Shown: piece by piece, positions 29,809 through 34,693 of the stretch
Numbering within the stretch: the stretch's first letter is position 1
Layout: each line of letters starts with the position of its first letter
Assembly: GCA_024742875.1 (NCBI GenBank)
Contig: JANSXP010000063.1
Location: 1-40,861, forward strand
Direction: 5' to 3'
Length of the DNA: 40,861 bases
Source of the DNA: Planctomycetaceae bacterium
GTDB taxonomy: Bacteria > Planctomycetota > Planctomycetia > Planctomycetales > Planctomycetaceae
Position numbers and translations under genes: made by a program
The notes under the pieces: generated by a model
What the model saw: the letters and a program-made list of their open reading frames with translations, nothing else
The model's database searches: none
What the model was told of the DNA's origin: nothing

Positions 29809-31611
29809 TCAATTCTGTCGACGCAGCAGCAGCAGACGAAAATCCATAACATGATCACCCGGGATGTCTGTCGCCTGCAACTTCAACTGACCTTTTCCGG
29901 CCGTCAGCGGCAGCACACCGAGCGTCATGCGTCCCCAGTTCTGCTCGTACGACTCCATCCGTTCAAAGCGGTCTTCTGCTGCGCCCACCAGTGCTGACGG
30001 ATGAGCGACCCTCACTTTGCCGGTCAGCGTTTGGTCGCCAAAGCTCAGGGCGATGGTCGAACCTTCGTCACCCTTTGGACACGAATAGAAAATCTCCACC
30101 TCGTACGTTCCCTCCGCGAGCACCTCGGCATCAAACGTGATGCTGTCATCCCTCGACGTCCAGTTGGTGAAGAAGGAGCTGTTGGGAAAGCGATTGGATC
30201 GTTTGATGCCACCATGCTCTTTGCCGTCCCGCGCCGGTAATTGCGTGGTGGGAGCATCGGGATGGGCAATCACAAACGGACGATCATCCTGCTCGTGACC
30301 TTTCGTGTCGCGATTGAGGGCCTCTATGGCGGACGACATCTGCTGCACCAGATCCGGGTGGCGGGCGGCCACGTTGTTTCGCTGACCGGGATCGGCCGGC
30401 AGATCAAACAGCGCTCCGTTGTTGTCAAGTCGCCAGCGGCCCAGTTTGGCACTGCGTTTGGTCTTCCACTGCGAGACAATAATCCGTTCGTCTGTGGCGT
30501 CATCGGAACCGAGCAAAGCGGACGACAGATCGACTCCATCCAGCGGCAGTTCATTGACGGTTTTGACACTCGCCAGCGACGTGAGCGTTGGGTGCAGATC
30601 GATGGCAGCGCCATTGGTCGTGACCGTGTGTCCGGCCGCGATTCTCGCTGGCCAGCGGACCAGACAGGGAGAGCGAACACCGCCTTCATCCGTGGACCCT
30701 TTGCGACCTTTCATATCTCCGTTCCACCGGGTCCCATTGGGTCCGTTGTCGCAGAAGTAGACCACGATGGTGTTGTCTGCCTGCTTGCTGTCGGACAGTG
30801 CCTGCATGATCCGACCCACATTCCAGTCGATGTTTTCACACATGGCCAGAGCGGCCCGAATATGCGTCAGGTTTTCCTTTTTGGGATCGCGATTGTGCAT
30901 CTGCAAGTCCCGATCTTTGAACTTGTTCCACCAGCGATCCGGCACCTGCATGGGCGAGTGAGGCGTGTTGTACGGCAGATACACAAAGAAGGGAGCATCG
31001 TCTGCGGCCGTCATGAAATCGATGGCCTGGTCGGTGAGGTCATCAATGATGAAGCCGTCACCCTGCACAATCTCACCATTGCGTTCCAGCATGGGACTGA
31101 AGTAGTGACCCCAGTGGCCCGAACAGAACCCGTAAAACAAATCAAAACCACGGGCGTTGGGATGGTATGGATACTGCATCCCATTGTGCCATTTGCCAAA
31201 CGCGGCCGTTCGATAACCGCCCGCCCGAAAGGATTGAGCGATTGTGATTTCGTCCAGGTCAAGGCGTTCGCCTCCGGCTGATGTGGAATACACGCCACCG
31301 CGGGCGTGGTAGCGTCCCGTCAGAAACTCCGCACGGGTCGGTGAGCACACGGGACACACGTAGAAGCGGTCGAATTTTGCCCCTTCGGCCGCCAGACGAT
31401 CGATGTTCGGCGTGCTCAGGTTTTGATTGCCGTTGAGAGACAGATCCCCCCAGCCCTGATCATCCGTCAAAATCACCAGGACGTTGGGTCGGGCGGCTGA
31501 CGACTGTTGCTTCAAATTTCCCTGATCAGCACAGCTTTCGCCACAAACGACGGACAACAGCAGTCCCGCCGCTGTCAGTTTCCACCAGGCAAACGGCTCA
31601 TGTTTCTGCAT
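29809..31611 (-). CDS. Exported arylsulfatase-type sulfatase
   Basis: The 600-residue protein has an export signal (about 1-28). The metal-binding start is VLVILTDDQGWGD (about 44-56). The formylglycine site is C89-S-P-T-R93 in VCSPTRAEFLTGRY, a type I sulfatase motif that needs oxidation of C89 by FGE or an anaerobic SME. KWHNGMQYPYHP and VYFCDNGPNG carry further metal and substrate ligands. An extra domain of about 130 residues follows the catalytic domain (SRDDSITFDAEVLAEGTYEVEIFY), a beta-sandwich that may bind carbohydrate. It probably acts on sulfated polysaccharides. Its ATG lies inside the 3' end of the upstream fusion gene (14-base overlap). Confidence 0.94.
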   Translation of the reverse strand: MQKHEPFAWWKLTAAGLLLSVVCGESCADQGNLKQQSSAARPNVLVILTDDQGWGDLSLNGNQNLSTPNIDRLAAEGAKFDRFYVCPVCSPTRAEFLTGRYHARGGVYSTSAGGERLDLDEITIAQSFRAGGYRTAAFGKWHNGMQYPYHPNARGFDLFYGFCSGHWGHYFSPMLERNGEIVQGDGFIIDDLTDQAIDFMTAADDAPFFVYLPYNTPHSPMQVPDRWWNKFKDRDLQMHNRDPKKENLTHIRAALAMCENIDWNVGRIMQALSDSKQADNTIVVYFCDNGPNGTRWNGDMKGRKGSTDEGGVRSPCLVRWPARIAAGHTVTTNGAAIDLHPTLTSLASVKTVNELPLDGVDLSSALLGSDDATDERIIVSQWKTKRSAKLGRWRLDNNGALFDLPADPGQRNNVAARHPDLVQQMSSAIEALNRDTKGHEQDDRPFVIAHPDAPTTQLPARDGKEHGGIKRSNRFPNSSFFTNWTSRDDSITFDAEVLAEGTYEVEIFYSCPKGDEGSTIALSFGDQTLTGKVRVAHPSALVGAAEDRFERMESYEQNWGRMTLGVLPLTAGKGQLKLQATDIPGDHVMDFRLLLLRRQN

Positions 31612-33253
31612 CGTCGGATCGCTTTCTCACTACAAACAGCACGGGGGACTTTGGTTTGGGCGGATTGCTGTCCTGCCGCTTCAGATCATAACCTTCGTCA
31701 TGACGATTCAGCAATTCTGCGACGGCACGGTATTCCTCCGGCCCCCCCTCATGGCCGCGATAACACAGCACGGTCAGGATGCCACCTGGTGCCAGCAGCC
31801 GCATGGCCGCCGCAATCGCCACCGTCGACGTGCGGGCCGTTGTCACTTTGGTCTTGTCGCTGCGGGGCAGGTAACCGAGATTGAACATCACGGCCATCGG
31901 ACGAAGGTTCTCTTCGTCTGCCAGTTGCTCATGCCCGGCGTGCCTCAGTTCCACGCAGGTTAGCTCACTGGACTTCAGCCTCTGTGCGGTGGCTGCCAGT
32001 GCTGACTGCTGCACGTCAAAACCGATCACTCGACCGGCGGCACCCACACACTCCGCGAGAAAAGACGTGTCAAAGCCGTTTCCCACTGTTGCATCGATGG
32101 CCAGATCACCAGCGCGCAGGATCTCTTTGACCCGCTGATGCGCACAGCCCGTCAGTGGTCGACGATCGGCTGAGGGGGCCGGGCGTACACGACTGGGCAG
32201 AAAAGCGACCGGCAGGTCTTCGCTGTGCAGCAAATGAGCAGCCAGATATTCCGCCAGTCGTGGCGCTCGCAGCGCCCCTTTGGAACCCAAACCATTGAGC
32301 GTGTAAACGCGGTCGCCTGGTGCGGACGGACCGAGCACTGGTTGATAGTCCTTCATCGTCGGACGCACGGCACCACGATGCCGCAGAATGCGAATGTCTC
32401 CGCCAACCATCCGCCGCACGCCTGTCAGCACCTGATTGCGACCCGCCTGTGTGGGCACATTCTCCAGATACTTCCAGTCATAGGTGCTGCCGATCCGCTG
32501 ATGCCCGTCCGACTGCGGCGCTATCCAGACGCTGCGATGCACCACCTGTTCTGCCGTGTAGTTTTCAATCTTCACATCCAGCAGGTCACCTCGACTGGGA
32601 TTGTCGGGAATCAGCGGAAAGGCCGGACTGGTCCAGGCGCCGGTGCACAGAATGACACGATCCGCCAGCAAGCGGAAATCGGTCCCCGCCGGGCTAAGCT
32701 CAAACGGCCCCGTGCCGTCTGCCTGCTGGAGCAAAGCTGTGATGTCAACGTCGGCGTGATACAGCCGTTGACGCTGGCGGAACCACGCGGCTGAGCCCTC
32801 CAGATATTCACTCACCTGAAGTCGACCAGCGGGCCGCATTTGAATGCCTGGCTGCAGTCGTCCGCCGGACTGCAGTGTGCCATTCCAGCTTTCCACGCTG
32901 TCGCGGACCCGATCTTCGGTGTCACGCAGAAACTCGTCGCGAGAGGCCTTATCGGCAAACAGTCGCAGCATCGGTTCCTGCTGAAAAACGGTCTGCTGCA
33001 GTTGCCGCTCGACATACTGATAAAAGTCTGTGGCCGTCGTCCAGTAAGCCTCAAATTCGTCGGATTTTACCAGTCGTTTTCCGGTCACCGGAGTCAGCAG
33101 TCCGGCCGAAACCCGGGACGCGGTTTCCGACCGTGGATGATCGACGACCACAAAGGACTGGCCGTGCCGCTGCAGGGTCCAGGCCAGGGCCGTGCCCGCC
33201 AGACCCTGGCCAATAATCAGACTGTCCACACGCTGGGACTCTGGATCGGTCAT
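31598..33253 (-). CDS. MnmC(o)-like FAD oxidase fused to a YtqB/MnmM-family methyltransferase
   Basis: The 551-residue protein has two domains. Residues 1-345 are a DAO-type FAD oxidoreductase: nucleotide-binding IIGQGLAGTALAW (13-25), RVSAGLLTPVTGKR (47-60) and the C-terminal GLGSKGALRAPRLAEYLAAH (321-340). The last is close to the GLGSRGL-x-x-AP-x-x-AE motif of the MnmC oxidase. After a linker, residues 368-546 match B. subtilis YtqB (MnmM) in order: AIDATVGNGFDTSFLAE (385-401), FDVQQSA (412-418), FNLGYLPRSDK (457-467) and CYRGHEGG (497-504). E. coli MnmC turns cmnm5(s2)U34 into nm5 by its oxidase and then into mnm5 by its methyltransferase. MnmM does the second step in Bacillus. The fusion predicts both activities in one chain. 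A ThiO- or DadA-like amine oxidase role is the alternative. Confidence 0.88.
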   Translation of the reverse strand: MTDPESQRVDSLIIGQGLAGTALAWTLQRHGQSFVVVDHPRSETASRVSAGLLTPVTGKRLVKSDEFEAYWTTATDFYQYVERQLQQTVFQQEPMLRLFADKASRDEFLRDTEDRVRDSVESWNGTLQSGGRLQPGIQMRPAGRLQVSEYLEGSAAWFRQRQRLYHADVDITALLQQADGTGPFELSPAGTDFRLLADRVILCTGAWTSPAFPLIPDNPSRGDLLDVKIENYTAEQVVHRSVWIAPQSDGHQRIGSTYDWKYLENVPTQAGRNQVLTGVRRMVGGDIRILRHRGAVRPTMKDYQPVLGPSAPGDRVYTLNGLGSKGALRAPRLAEYLAAHLLHSEDLPVAFLPSRVRPAPSADRRPLTGCAHQRVKEILRAGDLAIDATVGNGFDTSFLAECVGAAGRVIGFDVQQSALAATAQRLKSSELTCVELRHAGHEQLADEENLRPMAVMFNLGYLPRSDKTKVTTARTSTVAIAAAMRLLAPGGILTVLCYRGHEGGPEEYRAVAELLNRHDEGYDLKRQDSNPPKPKSPVLFVVRKRSDDAET

Positions 33254-33376: not shown

Positions 33377-34693
33377 ATGACGAAAACGACGCGACGCCAG
33401 TTTGTCCAGCAAACCACGGCCGCCGCCGCGCTGGCAACCGGTCTGCACGCTGCCGGACGTCCCGCACTGGCCAGCAGCAATCCTCTGGAAAAACTCAATA
33501 TCGCCTGCATCGGTACGGCCAACCGCGCCGCGGCCGATATTGAAGGCGTGATGACGGACAACATTGTGGCCATCTGCGATGTCGATTCTGTCTACATGGA
33601 ACGCTCGAAAAAAATGCTCACGGAGAAACTCGGGCAGGAGCCAAAGACGTTTGCCGACTATCGCGAAATGATCGACTCCTTCGGGGACAAATTCGACGCC
33701 GTCACGGTGGGCACGACGGACCATCATCATGCTCCGGCCACGATGCGTGCCATCAAAGCGGGCAAACATGTTTACTGCGAAAAACCGCTGACTCACACGG
33801 TCACCGAAGCCCGCATGATCGCGGAAGCAGCCGCCAAAGCGGGTGTGGCCACGCAGCTGGGTACTCAAATCCACGCTGGCAACAACTACCGCCGCGTCGT
33901 GGAAATTGTGCAAAGCGGAGCCATCGGCGATGTGACGGACGTGCACGTATGGGTGGGAAAAGGCTGGGGGATCACCAAACTCACCGGCGAACCTTCGCCT
34001 CCTCCCGCCAATCTCAACTGGGACCTGTGGCTGGGTCCCGCGCCTGAACGTCCCTTTGTGGCGGGTCGCTACCACCCTGCACAATGGCGACGCTTTTGGG
34101 ATTTTGGTCAGGGCACCCTCGGCGACATGGCGTGTCACTATATGGACCTGCCCTTCTGGGCCCTCAAACTGCGGCATCCGGTGGCCTGCGAAGCCGAAGG
34201 AGAGACGCCGCATGAAGAAATGGCGCCCACCGGATTGATTGTGCGGTACAAATATCCGGCACGTGGCGATATGCCGGCCTGCAATCTGACGTGGTATGAC
34301 GGCAATAAGATTCCGAAATCCGTCGATGGTCAGCGGGTTCGTGCCAATGGCGTGATGTTTATTGGCACCAAAGGAAAACTGTTCGCGGACTATGGCAGTT
34401 ATCGACTGTTTCCCGCGGACCAGTTTTCCGGTTTTGAGCCACCACCGAAGACCATACCCGATTCCATCGGCCACCATGCGGAGTGGATTAAGGCGTGCAA
34501 GGATGGTTCGCCAACGACGTGCAACTTTGACTACTCGGGCGCTCTGACCGAAGCTGTGCTGCTGGGCAATGTGGCCTATCGTTCAGGGAAGTCTCTTCAA
34601 TGGGATGCGGCTGCGCTCAAAGTGACCAATGACGCGTCTGCCAATCAGTATCTGACAAAGGAGTACCGCTCTGGTTGGGAAGTGGAAGCCTGA
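33377..34693 (+). CDS. Tat-exported Gfo/Idh/MocA-family oxidoreductase
   Basis: The 438-residue protein begins with a twin-arginine signal (TTRRQFVQQ, Arg6-Arg7, then an Ala-rich helix to about residue 33), so it is exported folded. The Rossmann domain follows (LNIACIGTANRAA) with CEKPLTH (about 134-140), whose lysine is the conserved catalytic residue of the family. A C-terminal alpha/beta domain (about 170-430) includes WDLWLGPAPERPF, typical of planctomycete members. Such enzymes oxidise or reduce sugars or inositols with NAD(P), usually with tightly bound cofactor. A hairpin terminator follows. It is divergent from the fusion gene (123 bases). Confidence 0.92.
   Translation: MTKTTRRQFVQQTTAAAALATGLHAAGRPALASSNPLEKLNIACIGTANRAAADIEGVMTDNIVAICDVDSVYMERSKKMLTEKLGQEPKTFADYREMIDSFGDKFDAVTVGTTDHHHAPATMRAIKAGKHVYCEKPLTHTVTEARMIAEAAAKAGVATQLGTQIHAGNNYRRVVEIVQSGAIGDVTDVHVWVGKGWGITKLTGEPSPPPANLNWDLWLGPAPERPFVAGRYHPAQWRRFWDFGQGTLGDMACHYMDLPFWALKLRHPVACEAEGETPHEEMAPTGLIVRYKYPARGDMPACNLTWYDGNKIPKSVDGQRVRANGVMFIGTKGKLFADYGSYRLFPADQFSGFEPPPKTIPDSIGHHAEWIKACKDGSPTTCNFDYSGALTEAVLLGNVAYRSGKSLQWDAAALKVTNDASANQYLTKEYRSGWEVEA

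Follow-up and report, generated by a model that had tools for sequence, protein, structure and literature searches.

A FAD oxidase fused to an MnmM methyltransferase in Planctomycetaceae, a proposed two-step enzyme for the tRNA wobble uridine

A single gene of a Planctomycetaceae bacterium encodes a DAO-type FAD oxidase followed, in the same chain, by a methyltransferase of the MnmM (YtqB) family. The gene lies within the 40,861 nucleotide stretch analyzed here (the window; contig JANSXP010000063.1 of assembly GCA_024742875.1). The fusion is probably a bifunctional enzyme that uses a distinct oxidase family to convert cmnm5U to nm5U and then to mnm5U, an activity that is inferred and not shown; the lack of activity data counts against this reading. 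In the proposed pathway, MnmE and MnmG would put the cmnm5 group on U34 and the 2-thio group would come from MnmA. The FAD domain at the N-terminus would then oxidize the N-carboxymethyl C-N bond of cmnm5(s2)U34, hydrolysis of the imine would release glyoxylate and leave nm5(s2)U34, and the C-terminal MnmM domain would use SAM to methylate the amine of nm5(s2)U34, giving mnm5(s2)U34. This proposal is built on direct observations of the identity of the two domains, conservation of the catalytic residues of MnmM, the predicted fold, gene linkage, the phylogenetic profile and the presence of MnmE, MnmG and MnmA; the substrate of the oxidase, the order of the reactions, glyoxylate release, any benefit of tethering both sites and catalysis itself are inferred.

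According to the MnmM discovery paper, no MnmC(o)-like partner is known for MnmM-bearing organisms, such a partner is expected in organisms with an orphan MnmC(m), including Bacteroides and alpha-proteobacteria, and an oxidoreductase-methyltransferase fusion or operon, hoped for through B. subtilis comparative genomics, was not found (PMC9976899). The locus described here offers a candidate oxidase family for several such lineages, and the fusion is itself a functional clue. We think it likely that this family is a third class of enzyme for the conversion of cmnm5U34 to nm5U34, a DAO-family tRNA oxidase apart from MnmC(o) and MnmL that is found in Planctomycetota, Verrucomicrobiota, Bacteroidota and parts of the Alpha- and Gammaproteobacteria, partners either of two methyltransferase families, and was apparently fused with MnmM more than once. 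MnmL is taken here to be a YtqA-type radical-SAM protein, with TIGR01212 as its model. The oxidase group may be the missing first-step enzyme in several bacterial phyla; if this is true, it would supply the MnmC(o)-like enzyme that is missing from many organisms with an orphan MnmC(m) or MnmM, and, since the oxidase has alternate methyltransferase partners and is fused to MnmM, evolution would have rebuilt MnmC from other parts. The same two-step enzyme looks to have arisen on more than one occasion, put together from different components. Given a candidate family and a ready-made fusion, the open question is reducible to one complementation experiment. We found no published description of an oxidase-MnmM fusion in a literature search that did not cover Jaroch et al. 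2024 (J Bacteriol; on MnmL and MnmM), whose abstract reportedly mentions 'fusion proteins'; a fusion of this type may thus already be noted there.

Table 1. Features of the fusion gene; positions are those of the window
Feature	Position	Strand	Basis
Fusion gene (551 aa) encoding a FAD oxidase and, after it, an MnmM methyltransferase	31598..33253	(-)	Pfam and NCBIfam profiles, ORF translation
FAD oxidase domain of the DAO type (residues 11-339), proposed for cmnm5U34 to nm5U34	32237..33223	(-)	Pfam DAO; predicted fold
Dinucleotide-binding motif GQGLAG, residues 15-20	33194..33211	(-)	G15, G17 and G20 invariant in 41 rows of alignment A1
Family signature NGLGSKG, residues 320-326	32276..32296	(-)	Alignments A1 and A3
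Interdomain linker, variable, about residues 346-368	32150..32218	(-)	Alignment of 28 fusions
SAM methyltransferase domain of the MnmM (YtqB) family (residues 369-544), proposed for nm5U34 to mnm5U34	31622..32149	(-)	NF053511; PDB 3eey, 8h0s, 8h1b
FNLGYLPRSDK, residues 457-467, equivalents of B. subtilis N101, Y104, K110	31853..31885	(-)	28-fusion alignment
YRGH, residues 498-501, equivalents of B. subtilis Y141, H144	31751..31762	(-)	28-fusion alignment

The open reading frame starts with ATG and stops with TGA. The original prediction of a 551-residue chain with a DAO-type FAD domain and then a YtqB-type methyltransferase was upheld by Pfam, which matched DAO (8e-31) and rRNA_methylase, the YtqB family (residues 409-519, 2e-32), and by the MnmM model NF053511. 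The motifs quoted with that prediction (GLGSKGALRAPRLAEYLAAH, DATVGNGFDT, FNLGYLPRSDK and YRGHEGG) are all present in the translation. The FAD oxidase-MnmM fusion is real, and it is beyond chance because, of 30 loci retrieved from this family with a match across both halves (the window's own among them), 28 hold one complete ORF that reads through the two domains in a single frame. The remaining two, one of which runs off its contig (L040) and one of which has a stop between the halves (L057), were left out of the 28-fusion alignment, and L031, L060 and L061 were removed as duplicates. A search of the window for tandem repeats and tRNAs found none.

Judged from its sequence, the C-terminal half is, as had been predicted, a full-length MnmM member; its key catalytic residues are intact, and it would be expected to methylate nm5(s2)U34 in tRNA. 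It scored 163.9 bits against the curated cut-off of 135 for NF053511, and its PDB matches include C. thermocellum 3eey, B. subtilis 8h0s and 4pon and S. mutans 3lby. In these respects it resembles the MnmM (YtqB) enzymes of B. subtilis, S. aureus and plants. Roles for N101, Y104, K110, Y141 and H144 of B. subtilis MnmM are given in PMC9976899. The catalytic or U34-binding residues D34, N101, Y104, Y141 and H144 correspond here to D395, N458, Y461, Y498 and H501; the equivalents of D34, N101, Y141 and H144 are invariant in 28 of 28 fusions, while the Y104 position is Y in 24 and F in 4, and the K110 position is K in 18, H in 9 and R in 1. Counting against the two-step reading, the U33-contacting K11 has no match, being H372 here and H (15) or Q (13) across the fusions, and K11E of the B. 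subtilis enzyme is described as nearly inactive in PMC9976899. The K11 match was extrapolated four residues ahead of the aligned stretch of 8h0s, and the related structure 3eey likewise has H at this position. Whereas MnmM stands alone in Bacillus, where the preceding step is assigned to MnmL (a table cited in PMC12548931), it is fused here to an oxidase, with no TIGR01212 match over cut-off.

The N-terminal half scored 108.2 bits to DAO (PF01266), against a gathering score of 27.9, and its fold agrees, which places it in the DAO superfamily. The domain model (pLDDT 92.1) matched CmiS2, IdaA, glycine oxidase and MnmC in the PDB. The two top-ranked solved folds, the glycine-oxidase homologues CmiS2 and IdaA, share only about 19% identity with the oxidase half and act on small molecules, but they cleave N-carboxymethylamines to glyoxylate and an amine (PMC11284099, PMC7312458). 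By analogy, this is the same kind of chemistry that would be needed to turn cmnm5U into nm5U. The glycine oxidase chains (query TM-score 0.74-0.79) rank above MnmC as folds, and the half scored slightly higher on the ThiO model TIGR02352 (95.7 bits, cut-off 250.8) than on the MnmC(o) model TIGR03197 (84.1 bits, cut-off 174.2), both below cut-off; its profile is nearer to the ThiO of the host genome than to E. coli MnmC. The model scores, the fold ranking and the profile all weigh against the two-step reading. In a tree that kept 18 of 31 family rows and left out SolA and OoxB as long branches, the oxidase family formed its own clade (support 100/100), and its placement next to MnmC(o) reached only 91/85. 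Where ThiO has G[HLM][HFY]R[NHS]G at its substrate site, nearly all oxidase-family rows have NG[LFM][GA][STA][KRH] instead; MnmC(o) has GSRG. K325 is K throughout A3, whose 66 rows are the window and 65 named oxidases; in the 41 rows of A1 it is K in 33, R in 7 and H in 1. The list of structure rows excludes L099, L102, L113, L120 and L122, and A2 (68 rows) takes part of that list.

The oxidase falls below the cut-offs of both the MnmC(o) and the ThiO models and is a clade by itself, so the difference from MnmC extends to both halves. Like E. coli MnmC (bifunctional MnmC2-MnmC1), the fusion is a single chain with a DAO-type FAD oxidase, bearing a G-S-[KR]-G-like motif near its C-terminal end, and a SAM methyltransferase, and the same conversion of cmnm5U through nm5U to mnm5U is proposed for it. 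Unlike E. coli MnmC, the domain order is reversed and the methyltransferase belongs to the MnmM family. Pfam found no PF05430, the MnmC(m) family, at the N-terminus or elsewhere in the fusion protein and, with the oxidase under the TIGR03197 cut-off and outside the MnmC(o) clade, we rejected MnmC orthology for either half. The idea of a rebuilt MnmC oxidase stood as to the DAO type, with orthology to MnmC(o) not shown. On the clustering that was to refute it, with ThiO, DadA or sarcosine oxidases rather than with MnmC(o), the outcome was a clade that is neither MnmC(o) nor ThiO.

MnmE, MnmG and MnmA, whose presence elsewhere the original prediction had called for, were all found in the host genome, where PF05430 was not found and TIGR01212 did not exceed its cut-off. 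Among 170 genomes of the family, 103 matched (E <= 1e-15). In 48 of these one match spans both halves; seven of the 48 report one stop inside, and three of the seven, when fetched, proved to be two intact fusions and one split pair. In six further genomes the two pieces sit in open frames reported with the same length, and the oxidase and MnmM genes are adjacent on the same strand in at least 33 of the 103. PF05430 was found in none of the 170 genomes. The other 67 genomes had no match, with up to eight candidates scored per genome, and five (G107, G071, G058, G259 and G017) had MnmM but nothing matching the oxidase at E <= 1e-5, with up to four candidates scored per genome; both counts run against the two-step reading. 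Absences in these scans are soft because only up to four or up to eight candidates per genome were scored. A contig scan with a single protein sequence as query found no relatives. A second type of fusion in L019 was dismissed as an Arg/Ala-rich frame shadow of 566 aa, with an N-terminal half unlike the oxidase, and a radical-SAM or DAO neighbor of MnmM in L015-L020 was also rejected, on ORF positions and N-termini alone.

A search with the oxidase gave 80 named loci. Nine of them are MnmM fusions, and in 24 an MnmM gene follows downstream on the same strand, mostly close to the oxidase gene or overlapping it, as in Thalassoglobus neptunius (L077) and Methylobacter tundripaludum (L151), which have the operon. 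The MnmM fusion is one form of a more widely found two-gene operon. The oxidase was apparently joined to MnmM more than once within the Planctomycetaceae. The other 47 loci had no MnmM within the flank; the two genes are unlinked in L006, and no MnmM was seen in L090. We drew 50 genomes from the 80 loci, 15 picked for a fused or adjacent MnmM and 35 as unlinked. MnmM was present in 21 of the 50, PF05430 in 18, both in none, and neither over threshold in 11; the hypergeometric values for this profile were 2e-6 (all 50) and 0.008 (the 35), ignoring choice of loci and relatedness. MnmM was located elsewhere in the genome in six of the 35. The 47 loci, the 11 genomes and these six all tell against a two-step enzyme. 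An MnmC(m)-type gene overlaps the oxidase gene in two loci (PF05430 in L136, NF033855 MnmC2 in L118). MnmC(m) had been expected beside the oxidase in Bacteroidetes, but only L136 was PF05430 among 10 size-picked neighbors, and when every ORF of the loci was searched with E. coli MnmC(m) and with the proteins of L118 and L136, no further MnmC(m) turned up beside the oxidase. Since these searches yielded only L136 and L118, the oxidase and MnmC(m) are unlinked in most of the Bacteroidetes loci seen; the genome of Draconibacterium orientale (L117, G474), for one, has the two at separate places. With the MnmM model passed, PF05430 missing from the family, MnmE, MnmG and MnmA present and the linkage recurring, the original prediction of a two-step enzyme rebuilt in reverse order from another methyltransferase family was supported.

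Because the oxidase clade is separate from MnmC(o), a different substrate is possible. The FAD half could act on U34 to make or consume another 5-substituent, for example by stripping the MnmM product or feeding a new hypermodification, with MnmM as its partner, and we found no nucleoside data for these organisms to set against this. We nevertheless regard it as improbable, since the oxidase adjoins two methyltransferase families, MnmM and MnmC(m), whose sole known common substrate is, to our knowledge, nm5(s2)U, and since TIGR01212, taken as the other known enzyme for cmnm5 to nm5, was over cut-off in none of the 170 family genomes. Still less probable is an oxidase of glycine or another amino acid, of thiamine or catabolic function, that shares no pathway with the MnmM to which it is tied. 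Such an enzyme would share the DAO superfamily and fit the nearer ThiO profile and the glycine oxidases among the best folds, but the host encodes a separate ThiO (281.1 bits against 250.8), the oxidase half is under that cut-off, and it lacks the R-[NHS]-G motif of ThiO, the Arg of which is the substrate-carboxylate Arg. Thus, ThiO identity was rejected. The linkage with MnmM, moreover, recurs in Planctomycetota, Verrucomicrobiota, Alphaproteobacteria and Gammaproteobacteria.

A different question is whether the oxidase half works at all. MnmEG can also make nm5 directly from ammonium (PMC9976899), and therefore MnmM does not strictly need the oxidase, a point against the two-step reading. 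The planctomycetes with MnmM and no oxidase match would suit a dead or vestigial oxidase half, with MnmM alone working on nm5U from MnmEG and ammonium. We give this very little credence and retain the two-step reading, since the FAD-motif and family residues are invariant in the 41-row and 66-row alignments and the oxidase is also kept in the 18 MnmC(m) genomes, which are without any MnmM match.

The fusion gene (Table) encodes a DAO-type FAD oxidoreductase at residues ~1-340, and the last ~180 residues form an MnmM/YtqB methyltransferase. The C-terminal half scored 163.9 bits against the curated NCBIfam MnmM equivalog model (cut-off 135), bearing out the original prediction of an FAD oxidase joined to an MnmM-family methyltransferase in one chain, and Foldseek matched its fold to 3eey and to B. 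subtilis and S. aureus MnmM, with TM-scores of up to 0.92 by target length. AlphaFold models were confident for the entire chain (pLDDT 92.6, pTM 0.79) and for the isolated oxidase half (pLDDT 92.1, pTM 0.92). The oxidase half cleared no named equivalog model among the best 25 of 48 NCBIfam matches, scoring 95.7 bits on the ThiO model (cut-off 250.8) and 84.1 bits on the MnmC(o) model (cut-off 174.2).

Table. The fusion gene and its neighbors in the window
Feature	Position	Strand	Description
Fusion ORF, 551 residues	33253..31598	minus	DAO-type FAD oxidoreductase + MnmM/YtqB methyltransferase
Sulfatase ORF, 600 aa, PF00884	29809-31611	minus	ATG inside 3' end of fusion gene, 14-base overlap
Gfo/Idh/MocA-type oxidoreductase	33377-34693	plus	Divergent, start 123 bases from fusion start

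A 37-row DAO protein tree placed relatives of the oxidase half in a single clade (100/100) and MnmC(o) in a separate one (100/99), with the ThiO and DadA rows elsewhere. The prediction that the FAD half would cluster with MnmC(o) rather than with ThiO or DadA was met only in part: in this tree it stands apart from the latter two, but in a clade of its own distinct from MnmC(o). A branch supported at 91/85 placed the oxidase family and MnmC(o) on the same side; the alternative, in which the family joins the ThiO rows together with three planctomycete rows that resemble ThiO, was not rejected (p-AU 0.069), and profile comparison, contrary to the tree, favored the ThiO of the host genome (118.7) over E. 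coli MnmC (73.4). That ThiO is a separate gene, over the model cut-off at 281.1 bits. Towards the C-terminus of the FAD domain, most family members carry NG[LFM][GA][STA]KG, where five MnmC(o) rows have GSRG and five ThiO rows have G[HLM][HFY]R[NHS]G, the arginine of which we take to bind the substrate carboxylate. The motif lysine was found in 66/66 rows when the window's oxidase was aligned with 65 named oxidases, and K/R/H were 33/7/1 across the 41-row oxidase alignment. Foldseek ranked CmiS2, iminodiacetate oxidase (IdaA) and glycine oxidase first, with MnmC only from rank 20. The top two, CmiS2 and IdaA, cleave N-carboxymethylamines oxidatively to glyoxylate and amine (PMC11284099, PMC7312458); this is the type of reaction that conversion of cmnm5U to nm5U needs. 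The family profile also gave a near end-to-end match (68.6 bits) to PDB 22zt_A, a 353-residue protein named as a predicted D-amino acid dehydrogenase.

Key residues of the MnmM half are numbered here as in B. subtilis MnmM, following Cho et al. (PMC9976899). Equivalents of D34, N101, Y141 and H144 were invariant in 28/28 fusions. The Y104 equivalent was Y in 24 and F in four; that paper gives an approximately three-fold reduction in B. subtilis MnmM activity for Y104F. The K110 equivalent was K18/H9/R1. The sole MnmM feature unmet was K11, replaced by H15/Q13 at a position extrapolated just beyond the aligned stretch; the related 3eey likewise has H there.

The host genome (8.18 Mb, 168 contigs, 98.1% complete) was found to contain all three pathway genes that were to be checked. 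MnmG scored 826 bits and MnmA 337 bits. The MnmE match (G000:C45:9953-11299) fell under the TIGR00450 cut-off, but in its 466 aa ORF the TrmE_N and MnmE_helical domains are matched over their full length and the GTPase domain over 99/113 positions; judged by these Pfam domains, it is a divergent MnmE. The check for absence of canonical MnmC gave the following: PF05430, the MnmC(m) methyltransferase, was found in 0/170 genomes of the host's taxonomic family and in 7/14 control genomes. TIGR01212, presumably the MnmL family, was over cut-off in 0/170 and 6/14, respectively.

The predicted recurrence of the fusion in other planctomycetes was confirmed. At E <= 1e-15, 103/170 family genomes matched: at least 48 had a single match across both halves, at least six more had two pieces of equal length in open frames, and at least 33 had adjacent same-strand pairs. 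Pairs in the family have the oxidase first and mostly overlap by 4 or 13 bases. Complete fused ORFs were recovered from 28/30 fetched spanning loci; of the other two, L040 extends past the end of its contig and L057 is a split pair. One internal stop was reported in 7/48 spanning rows. Three of these were fetched: the fusion is intact in L050 and L054, and in L057 the stop falls between the parts. Mapping the fused or split state onto the oxidase tree required seven changes, two forced by starred branches, and fusion or fission therefore appears, from these sequences, to have recurred. One genome (G407) had two spanning matches on separate contigs, C169 and C209.

Across the phylum, 29/294 genomes matched at E <= 1e-5, with at most four candidates scored per genome and absences limited accordingly. 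Two of the 29 had the fusion (the host and G291), ten others had the genes side by side, and two (G024, G283) had both genes unlinked; five phylum genomes had MnmM without an oxidase match at this threshold, few candidates having been scored. In L015, L017, L018, L019 and L020, planctomycete genomes outside the family, MnmM was present without an oxidase match at E <= 1e-5, few candidates having been scored; nm5U may be made directly by MnmEG in these, or another enzyme may be used.

Scanning named genome contigs with the 41-row alignment gave at least 563 confirmed stretches, of which the best 80 were kept. An oxidase ORF was seen in all 80; it was fused to MnmM in nine and followed by a same-strand MnmM ORF in 24, overlapping or within 95 bases in 23 of these (1823 bases in L132), while 47 had no MnmM within the flank. 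Closely linked loci include Planctomycetota, Verrucomicrobiota (L086, L088, L094, L105, L142), Hyphomicrobiales (L106, L108, L128) and Gammaproteobacteria (L133, L137, L151). The six stand-alone MnmM neighbors tested, one from the family genomes (L004) and five from the named loci (L086, L096, L106, L137, L151), passed the NCBIfam MnmM cut-off. In two loci without MnmM, an MnmC-type methyltransferase gene overlaps the oxidase gene: a PF05430 gene in L136 (Bacteroidetes) and an MnmC2 gene (223 bits, cut-off 136) in L118 (1987-3745, an Omnitrophota bin). The latter has the methyltransferase first, as in E. coli MnmC, and could reflect lateral transfer or mis-binning. No further MnmC(m) genes were found in the flanks of the 80 loci.

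We searched the genomes of 50 of these loci, among them 15 in which MnmM is fused to the oxidase or adjacent to it and 35 in which it is neither. PF05430 exceeded its cut-off in 18 genomes and MnmM in 21, and none had both; all 18 fell among the 35, six of which had MnmM elsewhere. The probability of zero overlap under random assortment was 2e-6 for all 50 and 0.008 for the 35, values that are descriptive only because the 15 were selected on the basis of MnmM and the genomes are not phylogenetically independent. Eleven genomes (L090, L091, L110, L111, L115, L121, L129, L130, L138, L140, L141) had neither methyltransferase over threshold; either they are incomplete, or a third methyltransferase is in use, or the pathway ends at nm5U.

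In the proposed mechanism, the oxidase half would convert cmnm5(s2)U34 to nm5(s2)U34, which the MnmM half would methylate to mnm5(s2)U34. On the evidence of genomic context, a complete pathway, mutual exclusion with MnmC(m) and the chemistry of the matched folds, we consider it very probable that the fusion performs both steps, although catalysis is inferred rather than shown. The fusion acts, by inference, like MnmC yet is not MnmC. The original view of a two-step enzyme rebuilt in reverse domain order with another methyltransferase family holds for family and order but is incomplete, since the oxidase clade differs from that of E. coli MnmC as well. If this is true more widely, the oxidase family would make up a third class of enzymes that oxidize cmnm5U and would close gaps noted by Cho et al. 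(PMC9976899).

At the start side of the fusion gene, the divergent Gfo/Idh/MocA-type gene matched the NF058561 glycoside 3-dehydrogenase model under its cut-off. Since the sulfatase and fusion genes overlap, the two may be translationally coupled.
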